Virus record (IMG/VR): IMGVR_UViG_3300042887_005614
Location: 1 to 20,479 of that record
Source: a virus
DNA length: 20,479 nucleotides
Strand: one strand, 5' to 3'
Shown: piece by piece, positions 742 through 14,747 of the stretch
How positions within the stretch are numbered: the first letter of the stretch is position 1
How the letters are laid out: each line of letters starts with the position of its first letter
Made by a program: the position numbers and the translations under genes
Notes under the pieces: model-generated
Told to the model about the DNA's origin: nothing
Databases searched by the model: none
The model's input: only the letters and a program-made list of their open reading frames with translations

Positions 742-1299
742 TCATGATGCCTGTGCCGCGGCGGTCTCCCCGCCCAGGGCCGCGTCTTCGGGCGGGTCGA
801 ACCGATCGGCCGCCTCGGTCAGCAGATCACCGACATGCTGCTGCAGCACGGTCTGGACCAGGTGCGGCTCCACCCCGAGGTCGGCGGCGATCAGGCCGGA
901 CACCCGGGCGGGCCAGTTCAGCAGCGCGTCGCGCATGGCGCCGGCGATCTCGTCGATGGCGGCGTTGGCGGTCACGGCGTCCAGCAGCCGGCCCTTGTCC
1001 TCGTCTAGCGCCATGCGCTGGGCTTCGACTTTCAGCGCCAGCTGGGCCACGCGCAGCCGGGCATACGGTGTGGCATCGCCGGACAGTCCGGCCTGCGTCG
1101 TGCCGGCTCCCACGGCGCCTGCCAGCGGCGAGCGCACCGGATCGGCAGACTCGATCATCCGGCGGCGGGTCTTCTCCACATCCCACTGGCCATCGGGCTC
1201 ACGCTCGATGCGGCCCTTGGCTTCCGCCTTGCGCAGGGCGGTCTCGGTGACGCCGATGCGGCGGGCCAGCTCCCGGGTGGAGGGGGTCAGTTCCGGCAT
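742..1299 (-). CDS. Nu1-like terminase small subunit (DNA packaging)
   Basis: 185 aa. The N-terminus carries a helix-turn-helix of the Nu1/terminase small subunit type (TRELARRIGVTETALRKAEA at about residues 6-25, then DGQWDVEKTRRRM). The C-terminal half contains LNWPARVSGLIAADLGVEP, a pattern seen in Nu1-like 'elements of external origin' proteins of prophages. Such proteins bind pac/cos DNA and recruit the large terminase to the procapsid. The frame continues upstream to 1395, but the ATG at 1299 is preferred because it starts the HTH domain and follows GGAAGGG at good spacing. The ParB gene upstream ends at 1322, 22 bases away. The large subunit would be expected further left, outside the window. 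Confidence 0.65.
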   Translation of the reverse strand: MPELTPSTRELARRIGVTETALRKAEAKGRIEREPDGQWDVEKTRRRMIESADPVRSPLAGAVGAGTTQAGLSGDATPYARLRVAQLALKVEAQRMALDEDKGRLLDAVTANAAIDEIAGAMRDALLNWPARVSGLIAADLGVEPHLVQTVLQQHVGDLLTEAADRFDPPEDAALGGETAAAQAS

Positions 1300-1321
1300 A
1301 GACGGCCCTTCCGCCGCGCGC

Positions 1322-1759
1322 TCAGGCCCGGCCGAGGGCACCCTCGGCTGCGGCGAGCAGCTGGTCCAGTTCGAGGCCGGAGAAGCCGAGCACATCGAGA
1401 TCGACCACGCCCTCGTCGCGGATGCGGGCGAGCTCGGCTGCGAGCAGCGCCTCGTCCCAGCCGGAGTTGAGCGCGATCTGGTTGTCGGCCAGCCGCAGCG
1501 CCCGCGCCTGCGCCTCGGTCAGATGCGCCAGGCGGATCGCAGGCACAGACGCGAGACCCAGCCGCTTCGCGGCCAGCACGCGGCCGTGGCCGGCCACCAG
1601 CACACCGGCGGCGTCGACCAGCACCGGGTTGACGAACCCGAACTCGGCGATCGACGCCGCGATCTGCGCAACCTGCGCATCGGAGTGGGTGCGGGCGTTG
1701 GCGGCGTACGGCACCAGCGACGCCAGGGGCACGGCCACAACAGTGAGGTCATGCTGCAT
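1322..1759 (-). CDS. Stand-alone ParB/sulfiredoxin-like N-terminal domain protein
   Basis: 145 aa. It has the ParB N-terminal fold pattern: VPLASLVPYAANARTHSDAQV, then IAEFGFVNPVLVD, the GHGR signature (VAGHGRVLAAKRLG), and LRLADNQIALNSGWDEALL. It is close in pattern to the N-terminal half of its upstream neighbour, so the two probably arose by duplication. ParB-like domains of this kind bind DNA or nucleotide (CTP in true ParB, ATP in some phage relatives) and some act as nucleases; the activity here is not known. The ATG at 1759 overlaps the end of the methyltransferase gene by 11 bases, implying translational coupling. It has no C-terminal partner domain and ends about 35 residues after the ParB core. 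Confidence 0.8.
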   Translation of the reverse strand: MQHDLTVVAVPLASLVPYAANARTHSDAQVAQIAASIAEFGFVNPVLVDAAGVLVAGHGRVLAAKRLGLASVPAIRLAHLTEAQARALRLADNQIALNSGWDEALLAAELARIRDEGVVDLDVLGFSGLELDQLLAAAEGALGRA

Positions 1760-3224
1760 GGGCCGACTCCTGCGTCGCCGCACGCGCCACGGCCACCGCG
1801 TCGTAATCCCTGCCGTCGCCCTCCAGCATCACCGGCAGATCGGGGTGGTTCTGCCGCCAGCGCGCAATGGCGAGGTCGACATAGGCCGGTGCCAGTTCGA
1901 TCGCCCGCACGTGCCGTCCAGTGCGCTGACCGGCAAGGATGGTGGTGCCGGACCCTGCGAAGGGCTCGAACACCACGTCGCCCTCGTCGGTCAACGCCCG
2001 CATCAGGAACTCCGGTAGCTTCACCGGGAACACTGCGGGGTGCTCGGTCTCGATGCCGCGGGCCTTGTGCCGGGTGATCCGCAGCACATTGTCCGGGATG
2101 CGCGTCTCCTGCACGCCCTGGCCGGCATGCTGCCAGTCGGTGACCGTGCCGTCCTTGTTGCGCAAGCCGCCATGGCTGCCGTTGACGTGACCCGCCCAGC
2201 GGCAAGGGATGATCTTGTTGGCCTGCCGTGCCTGGCGGTTGAAGTGGAAGATGAACTCGAAGCTCGGCGCTAGCCTGCCGTTCCAATCCCCAGGCAGGCC
2301 AGGCCCCTGGTCCCAGATGTAGAGCCCGAAGCGACGCCAACCCTGGGCGCGCATCCAGTCCAGCCAGCCGTTCCAGTAGGGTTGCCACTCGCTGTCGCGG
2401 TGGATCATGCCGAGGTTCACCAGCACCTGCGCGTCCGGCGCCAGCGCCAGGTCGAGATGGCCGAACACGCCCTGCATCAGCACATCCCAGTCGGCGACCC
2501 CACCGGTGGTATAGTCGCGCTGGTTGCCGTAGGGCGGGGAGGTGAACAGCATCGCCGCCCGCTCGCCGCGCATCAGGCGGGCGACGGTGGCAGTGTCGGT
2601 GCTGTCGCCACAGGCCAGGCGATGGTCGCCCAGGCACCAGACATCACCGACGCGGGCGACCGCCTGGCGTGGCTGGTCCGGCGCGACGTCGGCGGGATCA
2701 TCCTCATCGGCATCGCCGCCGGAAACCGCGGGCGTCTCGTCGCCATCGGCATCGGCGTCTTCCGGCGCATCCCGCGCATCGCCATCGGTGACGGCTTCAT
2801 CCGCGGCGGCCAGGATCGCGCCGATCTCCTCCTGCGAAAACCCGATGGCCAGAAGGTCAACCTCGCCGGCCTGCTGCAGCCCGGCGAGCGCATCCCGCAG
2901 CAGCGCCTGGTCCCAGGTCGCGTTCTCGGCGATCCGGTTGTCGGCGAGCCGCAGCGCGTCCTTCTGCGCCGGCGACAGGTGCTTCAGCACGATCACCGGC
3001 ACCTTGGCGATGCCGAGTGCCAGTGCCGCATCCAGCCGGCCGTGGCCAGCGATCAGCACGCCATCCTCGTCCACCAGCAGCGGGTTGGTGAACCCGAAGG
3101 CGAGCATACTGGCCTTGATCTGCTCGATCTGCCCGGCCGAATGGAGCCGCGCATTACCCGCGTGCGCGCGCAGTTCCCCCACCGGACGCAGCACGATCTT
3201 GGCGGCCATCCATGGGAGGGACAT
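1749..3224 (-). CDS. ParB-domain / DNA methyltransferase fusion (beta-class)
   Basis: About 491 aa from the ATG at 3224. Residues 1-140 form a ParB N-terminal domain (GHGR at about 60-63, then LRLADNRIAENATWDQALL). An Asp/Glu-rich linker follows (about 145-185), then an amino-methyltransferase domain. Motif IV is TSPPY (about 228-232) and motif I is FEPFAGSGTT (about 419-428). IV before I is the beta-class order, so it should transfer a methyl group from SAM to N6-adenine or N4-cytosine. Such fusions are common in prophages and are usually orphan enzymes thought to protect phage DNA or mark packaging or replication sites. No cognate endonuclease is adjacent. The start is uncertain: in-frame ATGs also lie at 3233 and 3209, and none has a clear ribosome-binding site. 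Confidence 0.85.
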   Translation of the reverse strand: MSLPWMAAKIVLRPVGELRAHAGNARLHSAGQIEQIKASMLAFGFTNPLLVDEDGVLIAGHGRLDAALALGIAKVPVIVLKHLSPAQKDALRLADNRIAENATWDQALLRDALAGLQQAGEVDLLAIGFSQEEIGAILAAADEAVTDGDARDAPEDADADGDETPAVSGGDADEDDPADVAPDQPRQAVARVGDVWCLGDHRLACGDSTDTATVARLMRGERAAMLFTSPPYGNQRDYTTGGVADWDVLMQGVFGHLDLALAPDAQVLVNLGMIHRDSEWQPYWNGWLDWMRAQGWRRFGLYIWDQGPGLPGDWNGRLAPSFEFIFHFNRQARQANKIIPCRWAGHVNGSHGGLRNKDGTVTDWQHAGQGVQETRIPDNVLRITRHKARGIETEHPAVFPVKLPEFLMRALTDEGDVVFEPFAGSGTTILAGQRTGRHVRAIELAPAYVDLAIARWRQNHPDLPVMLEGDGRDYDAVAVARAATQESAHAA

Positions 3225-3491
3225 CGGCGGCATCCGGATATGGAGAGGATGGTGCTGCGCACCGCGCACCAAAATTGCGACCTGGCGCTAGGGGTCTATC
3301 GCGCTCCTGCCCCCCGCATCGATCCGGCCCAGGAAGGAACCATGGGATCGATGCAGGCTTGGCAGGCTCGATGCCGTCGGGGCCGGTGGCCCATCAGCGG
3401 CGAATGTCCAAACAATACCGAAACCGGATTCCGCTGGGGAGTGCGAAGATGTAGCGTTTTGCAGGTTTTTTCAGAACGAGGACAACAGCAG
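3225..3491. other. Divergent intergenic region between ParB-methyltransferase and DUF429 genes
   Basis: About 267 bases with no convincing gene, expected to hold a promoter for the rightward DUF429 gene and possibly one for the leftward methyltransferase. Features seen: an inverted repeat ATCGA...TCGAT around 3348-3373 enclosing a direct repeat of GCAGGC; a purine-rich AGGAAGG at 3331-3337 just before an ATG at 3342 that is in frame with DUF429; and a T-run at 3466-3471. No convincing -35/-10 pair was found. Confidence 0.4.
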
Positions 3492-4307
3492 ATGACCCTC
3501 CCCAATGTCGGGGCCGTCCTCGGTGTCGACGTGGGCTTCTCACCTACCAAGCGTTCGAGCGCCGTCTGCCTGCTGTCGTGGAATGACAATGAGCTCTGGT
3601 GGTCCATCAAGCGCTTTCGCTATCGCGAGGCGGAGTGGCAGGCGGCATTGACGGAGCTTGGAACACTCACCCCGCTTCTCGCCGCGGCATTCGATGGCCC
3701 GCTTCGCTCTGGCTTCGACGTCATCGGTCGGTATCGGACGGCCGAGCGGGTTCTGACCCGAGGGCTTGGAGGGGTGATTGGCAAGCCTGGCCAGTCGTCC
3801 TCGCCCGTGGGCAAAAGCCTCAATGCCGCAGCCAACGCCCTTGCGCTCTTTGTCCGCGATGCCGCCGACTTGGCCGATGCCAGCCACCCGCACGCCATTG
3901 ACGCCAAGGCGATCGTGGAGGCGTTCCCATCGAGTTTCCTCGGCGTGATGCTGGAGCACCCCTCGGACCTCTCTGTGACCCGCGGCGACCGATCCGATGT
4001 CTTCTTCCAGCATCTCGCCTCGGTGGGCGCCTTGCAGGAACTCTCTCAGCACCTGCTTCCGGGACGGCATGCGCGTCATTCCTGGACCGACGTGACCAAC
4101 CACGACGACCGGGCCGCCCTGGTCTGTGCGCTCACGGCACTGGCCGTCGCACAGGGTGACTACACCGCGGTCGGGGATGACGATGGGTGGATCATCCTGC
4201 CGCCCCGGCAGTTCATTCGTTCGTGGGCGTGGAACACAATGGTGGCAAACAGCGGGGCCGATGGGCACGTCGCTGCCGTGAACAGCGGAGCGCTGGTCGT
4301 CACCTAG
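3492..4307 (+). CDS. DUF429 protein (predicted RNase H-like nuclease fold)
   Basis: 271 aa. It matches the DUF429 pattern along its length: an opening strand with an Asp (VLGVDVGFSPTKRSSAVCLL, about residues 9-28), AAFDGPL, VEAFPSSFLGVML, a late HDDRAALVCALTALAVAQGD helix, and DDGWIILPP near the end. DUF429 proteins adopt an RNase H-like fold; the substrate is unknown. The ATG at 3492 is chosen because GAGGA lies 9 bases upstream and the domain begins at once. A second ATG at 3342 with a strong AGGAAGG would add 50 residues without domain character. The gene is inverted within a leftward phage operon, and its stop overlaps the convergent neighbour's stop in one CTAG. It looks like a separately controlled cargo gene; defence is a guess. 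Confidence 0.75.
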   Translation: MTLPNVGAVLGVDVGFSPTKRSSAVCLLSWNDNELWWSIKRFRYREAEWQAALTELGTLTPLLAAAFDGPLRSGFDVIGRYRTAERVLTRGLGGVIGKPGQSSSPVGKSLNAAANALALFVRDAADLADASHPHAIDAKAIVEAFPSSFLGVMLEHPSDLSVTRGDRSDVFFQHLASVGALQELSQHLLPGRHARHSWTDVTNHDDRAALVCALTALAVAQGDYTAVGDDDGWIILPPRQFIRSWAWNTMVANSGADGHVAAVNSGALVVT

Positions 4308-4846
4308 TGGACGGGCACAAGCCGGTAATGAGCGGCGAGGACACCGAGGGACACCACCAGCATTCCCTGGGCCTGGGCATGCCCGACAATGCGGCCGCCC
4401 CACCCGTGGCGACGCGCCCATTCGGTGATCGAGAACTCGAGCCCGACCACGTGCCAGACGCAGGATGCACCGGCGCTGTTGAAGCCTCCCAGCGCCTCCA
4501 TGGCTTCGGCCACCCGGCGCCGACCGGTGTACTGCTGCTCGGTGAGGGAATCGCCGCCGCCACCTGGGATCCTGAGCATCGACATGCCTCGCAGCGGATC
4601 GAGGGCGGCGACGCGGAAGTGCCGGCGGAACATCGCCCCCGCGTCGTGCATCTCCTCGGTGATGGTGCCGTTGCCGAGCATGACGCCGAGCGTGTCGATG
4701 GCATAGCGATGTGCCCGCAGCACGCCGCTTTCCGGGTCCGGCTCGCGCACAGGGGCGCTGAACGCGCCATGCTGCATCCGCCACGCCGAGGGCTTGGACA
4801 GGTCCTCGAGTTGTACGGCAGTGCGGCGCTTGCGCTTGCTGGTCAT
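4304..4846 (-). CDS. Conserved phage protein, DUF6456-like C-terminus
   Basis: 180 aa. The Lys/Arg-rich start (MTSKRKRR) leads into a central helical region with THEEMHDAG-like spacing (TITEEMHDAGAMFRRHF). The C-terminal block is VWHVVGLEFSITEWARRHG, then GWGGRIVGHAQAQGMLV and LGVLAAHYRL. That block resembles DUF6456 and related phage proteins, where a small helical, possibly DNA-binding, domain ends in a conserved LA-HY-L motif. The function is unknown. The ATG at 4846 overlaps the upstream gene's stop as ATGA and follows GGAAGGAAC. The stop overlaps that of the convergent DUF429 gene by 4 bases. It is the last visible gene of the leftward replication operon before the inverted DUF429 gene. 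Confidence 0.65.
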   Translation of the reverse strand: MTSKRKRRTAVQLEDLSKPSAWRMQHGAFSAPVREPDPESGVLRAHRYAIDTLGVMLGNGTITEEMHDAGAMFRRHFRVAALDPLRGMSMLRIPGGGGDSLTEQQYTGRRRVAEAMEALGGFNSAGASCVWHVVGLEFSITEWARRHGWGGRIVGHAQAQGMLVVSLGVLAAHYRLVPVH

Positions 4847-5106
4847 GGTGCTGTTCCTTCCCGACGCCGTCCCCAGCGCCGTGTGGCTTCGTTGACAAGA
4901 GCCTGGCGTAGCCAGGTGTCGGTGATGTCGTTGATGGCCAGGGCTGCCACGCCATGGCGGTGCCACGCAGCCGCACGCATGGCTTCCAGGTCGGCGTCCG
5001 AGGCGGTGCTTGGACCACGGTCGAGGCTGGAGCGCGGCGGGCGGGGCGCGCCGTGTAGGGCTGGCTGCACCTGCTTGTTGCTGTGCCGTCTCCAGACGGG
5101 GGCCAT
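4843..5106 (-). CDS. Small conserved phage protein, 87 aa
   Basis: The function is unknown. The N-terminal half is basic and proline-rich and probably disordered. The C-terminal half is a compact helical segment (DADLEAMRAAAWHRHGV, then NDITDTWLRQALVNEATRRWG) resembling small proteins that accompany the DUF6456-like gene in related prophages. The start ATG follows directly on the TAG stop of the preceding frame, with GGGGGGA as its ribosome-binding site. The stop overlaps the next gene as ATGA, so the product is probably translationally coupled to both neighbours. No catalytic motif is seen. Confidence 0.65.
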   Translation of the reverse strand: MAPVWRRHSNKQVQPALHGAPRPPRSSLDRGPSTASDADLEAMRAAAWHRHGVAALAINDITDTWLRQALVNEATRRWGRRREGTAP

Positions 5107-13796: not shown

Positions 13797-13895
13797 GGCC
13801 GTAAGATACAAACTGGCGCGCGACGAAAACAAGACTTGTAATGCGACAAAATTAGAGCTACACAATTGCGCAGGAAGCGCTACATAGTGCAGCGC
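13797..13895. promoter_or_regulatory. Divergent cro-cI control region with candidate operators
   Basis: This 99-base region separates the Cro-like and CI-like genes. Candidate operators are TTGTAATGCGACAA (13836-13849, TTGT/ACAA arms), GAGCTACACAATTGCG (13855-13870), and GCGCTACATAGTGCAGCGC (13877-13895, GCGCT/AGCGC arms) ending just before the cI ATG. A TCTAAT box is read leftward at 13856-13851 and could be the -10 for the operon, though its -35 is poor. The stretch is AT-richer than its surroundings. Confidence 0.6.
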
Positions 13896-14690: not shown

Positions 14691-14747
14691 GCGCTACAAA
14701 ATCGCACTCCCGCGGCGGTCGCGGCGATGTGTATCGTTAAGCGATGC
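14691..14747 (+). promoter_or_regulatory. Candidate operator/promoter before the recombinase cassette
   Basis: GCGCTACAAAATCGCA (14691-14706) matches GAGCTACACAATTGCG in the cro-cI region at 12 of 16 positions, and shares GCGCTACA with the operator at 13877. A second inverted repeat, GTATCG-N5-CGATGC (14731-14747), overlaps the first ATG of the next gene. This suggests the phage repressor also controls the integration cassette. No convincing -35/-10 pair was identified. Confidence 0.45.

Follow-up and report, generated by a model that had tools for sequence, protein, structure and literature searches.

A DUF429-like gene as exchangeable cargo in a cos-side turnover hotspot of a temperate phage family

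INTRODUCTION

Phage lambda carries bor, an opposite-strand accessory gene immediately inside its right cos end; bor is expressed in the lysogen and encodes a lipoprotein. Antiviral hotspots adjacent to cos have been described in P2 and P4 as small loci flanked by a pair of conserved phage genes (Rousset et al. 2022, PMC9122126). Proteins of the DUF429 family (PF04250) belong to clade D of the RNase H-like superfamily, the clade of RuvC and terminase, and have been predicted to have nuclease activity (PMC3985635). The Rhodobacter RcC phages were reported by their authors to have 11-base 5' cohesive ends (PMC8601537). Here we compare with these systems a locus in IMG/VR virus record IMGVR_UViG_3300042887_005614; the window is the whole stretch that was analysed, 20,479 bases that include a prophage end.

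RESULTS

A rightward gene at the junction of two leftward operons

The early and packaging genes of the window are read leftward, and a repressor and a serine integrase are read rightward at 13.9 to 16.8 kb. Host genes lie past 17.6 kb (a TIGR01620-family gene, the gene preceding it, which we take to be YcjX, and tRNA-Gly), and one prophage-host junction is probably located at about 17.2 to 17.6 kb. Between 15324 and 20479, the integrase is followed by a small downstream gene and then by the apparent host genes (YcjX-like, TIGR01620 family) and the tRNA. Consistent with an earlier note on this DNA, which had picked out a single inverted gene in the phage gene block, 3492-4307 is the sole rightward gene left of the repressor (~13896); everything else from position 1 is leftward, including the open frame at 1-301. 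The same note had placed the gene inside a phage operon. Leftward genes do lie on either side of it, but its position is the junction of the early operon with cos and the packaging operon.

742-1395, minus strand: terminase small subunit (phrog_57), a packaging gene past cos
1749-3272, minus strand: ParB-domain DNA methyltransferase, the conserved cos-side anchor of the slot
3478-3482, plus strand: ribosome-binding site GAGGA, read from the sequence, with 9-nt spacing to the ATG
3492-4307, plus strand: DUF429-like cargo gene, 271 aa, ATG start
4304-4966, minus strand: DUF6456-like protein, conserved anchor on the early-operon side (27.1 bits against a cut-off of 26.3)

The ribosome-binding site that had been claimed is present, and the stop codon of the gene overlaps that of the convergent DUF6456-like gene (CTAG, 4304-4307). 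Given that dN/dS is 0.08 against an 83%-identical copy in a closely related contig (L002) and 0.17 to 0.26 against more remote, ~60%-identical homologues, we regard 3492-4307 as a real, working gene that, by these ratios, is under purifying selection.

The slot between the two anchors turns over

We define the slot as the interval from the DUF6456-like gene to the ParB-methyltransferase gene. To collect IMG/VR loci, we scanned with both flanking genes and with the primase and kept the loci that hold both anchors; this gave 82 other loci, of which 76 were distinct once near-identical slots were merged. The slot was empty (259 to 531 nt) in 33 of the 76 distinct loci and occupied in the other 43, and across loci it ranged from 259 to 4690 nt, either empty or holding one of more than 15 cargo classes. 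Spacing between the DUF6456-like and methyltransferase genes exceeded 600 nt in 55% of loci, compared with 0 to 12% at eight neighbouring control junctions; the ParB-terS interval was constantly long in all loci of this comparison.

Among the 82 other loci and the window, DUF429 was found in the slot only in the window, in L002 (the same kind of phage), and in L146, a divergent prophage in an Acetobacterales genome with a protein 60% identical to that of the window. The locus comparison that the earlier note had set as a check thus found DUF429 swapped for other genes or absent across relatives, and the cargo role that it had proposed gains support. DUF429 is not a fixture of all relatives, since the slot is empty or otherwise filled in nearly all of them.

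3468-4303, no strand: swapped unit, DNA not common to close relatives; shared blocks end at ~3467 and at the DUF6456-like stop (4304)

Close relatives delimit the exchange. L009, with a methyltransferase 90% identical to that of the window, matches window positions 3467-2900 and 4810-4318 and has a gene for a 393-aa protein between them; L010 matches 3456-3250 and 4810-4326 and has a gene for a 335-aa protein in the slot; and in four further close relatives (L019, L020, L022, and L099) the slot is empty. Judged from these alignments, the DUF429-like gene is an exchangeable accessory gene, and the site that it occupies, with a conserved phage gene on each side, is a turnover hotspot.

The commonest recognisable cargoes were cassettes with an HU-like protein or its usual 123-aa companion (~14), the TacA1 antitoxin with a GNAT toxin (10 loci, inverted as DUF429 is), and a PIN_10 protein with an HTH partner (3 loci). 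Single cases were DUF4917 (PDC-S21) with SocA_Panacea, DUF4268 (PDC-S11), an HTH-ImmA/IrrE cargo (PADLOC PD-Lambda-2_B), a restriction-enzyme-like protein (PADLOC mREase_II), HNH, Schlafen/AlbA (SLFN_AlbA_2), and DUF5131; several slot proteins matched no family. Because many slot genes resemble toxin-antitoxin or anti-virus genes, the DUF429-like gene probably aids the host against rival viruses. Not all of the cargo is defence-like, and the presence of HU-like, RTX-like, and ceramidase-like genes in the same hotspot would suit a lysogen trait other than defence, such as plasmid-like stability, metabolism, or some other conversion. We consider such a trait very unlikely for the DUF429-like gene, whose homologues have mostly restriction and toxin-antitoxin genes as neighbours.

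Orientation was discarded as a distinguishing feature of the gene: TacAT, PDC-S11, SLFN, and mREase cargoes are inverted too, and PIN, HNH, HU, and PDC-S21 cargoes are not. An HU-like gene (PF00216), often with the 123-aa companion, is frequent just before cos (L011, L012, L013, L018, L055, L060, L071, L072, and L092), and it may have a packaging function rather than being cargo. The slot of L097 holds a DUF5131 gene (914-1714, plus strand) convergent with a gene for a 306-aa protein (1699-2619, minus strand) that, judged by eye, resembles a three-Cys-motif partner (TcmP). In L073 (5732-7693), the cargo has three genes, the middle one being the PD-Lambda-2_B match (E=1e-44).

The slot abuts a cos site

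3256-3345, minus strand: cos element, a conserved noncoding block before the methyltransferase gene, present in nearly all relatives and matching RcC virion ends
3300-3320, minus strand: inferred cosN, GATGCG^GGGGGCAGGAGCGCG, cut between 3315 and 3314, with an 11-base 5' overhang GGGGGCAGGAG, from the RcKemmy and RcFrancesLouise ends

The element has the consensus GGTTCCTTCC-N-ATGCGGGGGGC-GGA-GCGCG-N-CTAGCGCCAGG and, at no more than 5 mismatches to a 21-base core, is found at the methyltransferase end of the slot in 80 of the 83 loci (53 exact); 8 of 800 shuffles reached the same threshold. Rhodobacter RcC phages have the same element and the same gene order (HTH gene, element, ParB, terminase). 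The records of RcKemmy and RcFrancesLouise start with GGGGGCGGAAGCGCG and end in ...TATGCG, so that the junction reads TATGCG / GGGGGCGGAAG..., and the RcBaka record is cut at the same spot, give or take a base or two. We conclude that the element is cos because it matches the physical virion ends of phages with published 11-base 5' cohesive ends; the position of the cut in the window is carried over from the RcC record ends. A promoter-only reading of the conserved block was dropped in view of that match. The exact 21-base pattern had no match in 385 sampled alphaproteobacterial genomes, a sample too thin to be informative.

The cargo accordingly lies at the right virion end, as it does in the P2 and P4 hotspots (PMC9122126). 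The adjacency of the site to cos was absent from the earlier note and comes from the likeness of the element to the RcC ends.

3435-3456, minus strand: leader block CGCTACATCTTCGCACTCCCCA, common to L009, L010, L039, L078, L085, and L146

This block probably acts as promoter or operator for the transcript that runs leftward on the cos side, and its sequence is more likely to serve that transcript than DUF429 because it points leftward and is present in relatives that lack DUF429. Near the DUF429-like gene itself, a sigma-70 consensus scan, which covers E. coli-type signals only, recognised no promoter or terminator. The motif GCTACANNNTYGCRC occurs exactly at three window sites, 3441-3455 (minus strand), 13857-13871 (plus), and 14693-14707 (plus), which are the cos-side leader and the positions before and after the repressor. 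It is found at the same three places in L146 (689, minus; 11221, plus; 12046, plus), one of them with a mismatch. A two-mismatch search with the motif gave chance-level results, and the three exact sites are all that stands out; from them, in a pattern found post hoc, a shared operator or phage promoter is possible.

The product is a divergent DUF429 relative with a predicted RNase H-like fold

The DUF429 pattern noted earlier proved right in kind and weak in degree: in a Pfam scan, PF04250 scored 13.1 bits against the window protein, below the gathering cut-off of 23, and it had no match at E<=1 in the other eight family members scanned. The PADLOC candidate PDC-S44 matches residues 9-238, almost the full length (E=3.4e-4, 17.9 bits), with a match at E<0.01 in just 2 of 9 family members. 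Residues D13, D68, E143, and D205 are kept across aligned homologues, and bona fide DUF429 proteins, obtained via PF04250 and PDC-S44 searches of 76 genomes (the latter giving one partial match), have D, D, E, and DD in the same order. Profile-profile comparison with these proteins (hhalign) was weak (probability 0.7%, E=0.082) and colinear at the motifs. We treat the window protein as a divergent, sub-threshold relative of DUF429.

As for the RNase H-like fold that had been proposed, the best AlphaFold (AF2) model (pLDDT 81.8, pTM 0.87; 4 input sequences, with pLDDT of five models from 39.5 to 81.8) shows its strands in an RNase H-like order and places the four acidic residues at the expected ends. 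The top Foldseek ranks were of the same kind, comprising terminase nuclease domains, Ydc2, RuvC, EndoV, and RNase HI mixed with Hsp70 and NurA, but no match was significant (E>=0.2 in PDB and >=0.005 in BFVD). Sequence searches of the PDB with the window protein gave chance-level matches only. The predicted fold and conserved acidic residues suggest a nuclease with D13, D68, E143, and D205 as candidate active-site residues. We think it most probable that the protein, divergently related to DUF429 and PDC-S44, is a metal-dependent nuclease of the RNase H fold.

A nuclease of this kind, of RuvC- or terminase-like fold, might instead serve the lytic cycle of the phage, for instance by resolving Holliday junctions or cutting host DNA, and merely happen to be encoded on the opposite strand. 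The rank of Ydc2, RuvC, and terminase domains among the folds would fit, as would the position of the gene next to recombination and replication genes and cos. Against this, the gene is missing from the slot in nearly all siblings, including several with high similarity elsewhere, homologues occur on plasmids and chromosomes without recognisable phage neighbours, and the gene is convergent to the early operon. We therefore hold a lytic role to be distinctly unlikely.

Homologues move among replicons and often sit beside restriction and toxin-antitoxin genes

No homologue of the window protein was found in 50,697 phage records. Of 397 genomes sampled from the host's order, 10 had a match (~7 of these strong), whereas 385 genomes sampled from the host's class yielded only the homologue already known. 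The DUF429-like homologues evidently move between plasmids, chromosomes, and phages of Acetobacterales. Phd-VapC adjoins the homologue in L003 (9046-10282), where the last 11 nt of the toxin gene also belong to the DUF429 frame, and in L149 (7597-9075) a Phd-VapC pair is followed by an overlapping DUF429 gene, with HsdR alongside. Near other homologues are HsdRSM with a TM0106-type nuclease (L159); McrBC, Phd-VapC, HNH, and UvrD (L004); and HNH with a TM0106-family nuclease (L005 and L006). In L147 and L148, the homologues lie among housekeeping or polysaccharide genes, with no restriction or toxin-antitoxin neighbours. The phd-vapC-DUF429 arrangement in L003 resembles a three-gene operon.

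Such arrangements raise the alternative that the gene belongs to another system, either Phd-VapC or an HNH nuclease, as its helper or third part, and that, captured without its partner, it now does little. DUF429 follows and overlaps phd-vapC in two loci, and an HNH gene starts within ~35 nt downstream of it in L004, L005, and L006. The partners vary by locus, none is present in the window or in L146, and the dN/dS of 0.08 to L002 indicates selection without a partner; we find this alternative unlikely.

DISCUSSION

Our best explanation as a whole, which we favour with some reserve, is that the gene is accessory cargo in a cos-side turnover hotspot and encodes an RNase H-fold nuclease that makes the lysogen resistant to other phages or foreign DNA. 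The hotspot lies at the right virion end of a cos-type temperate phage family, with the last early gene (DUF6456-like) on one side and cos on the other. The product, a metal-dependent nuclease by its predicted fold and catalytic residues, would be expressed from the prophage, its divergent orientation allowing transcription separate from the lytic operons, and would act either by cleaving nucleic acid that enters the cell or by causing the death of the infected cell. Defence or exclusion appears to be the likeliest role and fits the company that the gene keeps here and elsewhere, an argument of guilt by association; weighing against it, PDC-S44 is itself only a candidate. More tentatively, and with somewhat less than even confidence, we speculate that this mobile RNase H-fold branch is a new family of stand-alone anti-phage nucleases, that its spread in Acetobacterales is due to a cos-adjacent defence hotspot not described before, and that several other unclassified slot genes are likewise new defence systems.

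Starting from one anomalous gene, the analysis arrives at a defined hotspot that can be searched for by its fixed anchors (DUF6456-like gene, cos, and ParB-methyltransferase). The slot holds about ten cargo classes resembling toxin-antitoxin or defence systems, and several others that match no family. The analysis provides a short list of genes for phage-resistance testing in alphaproteobacteria, and DUF429-like proteins, unstudied so far, gain a testable function.

Since the slot abuts cos, it belongs with the P2/P4-type cargo hotspots beside cos, here in a different lineage of phages, and extends the idea of cos-side hotspots past P2 and P4. Like those hotspots, it lies directly beside cos and shows fast turnover of short toxin-antitoxin or defence-like systems (PMC9122126). 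It differs in its lineage (ParB-methyltransferase/Nu1-type terminase phages of Acetobacterales and relatives, with the RcC phages as virion-sequenced cousins), in its anchors and cos sequence, and in having cargo with a putative anti-phage role, by similarity to toxin-antitoxin, restriction, and PADLOC candidate systems. RcKemmy and RcOceanus (RcC cluster, PMC8601537) share the cos element and the order HTH gene, cos, ParB, terminase, but have no annotated gene in their slot before cos.

The gene resembles lambda bor in its opposite strand and cos-end position, and differs in that its product is a predicted nuclease. With DUF429 the window protein shares the order of acidic motifs (a D closing strand 1, then DxP, ExxP, and a DD that opens the last helix) and the predicted RNase H-like fold, but it falls under the Pfam cut-off, and its branch clearly moves between phages, plasmids, and chromosomes, whereas DUF429 genes were deemed unlikely to be mobile (PMC3985635). 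The likeness to PDC-S44 spans nearly the full length, but its score is weak and is shared by few family members. The kind of arrangement (cos-adjacent hotspot, moron) is already known; the lineage, the anchors, and the cargo family appear to be new within the searchable literature.
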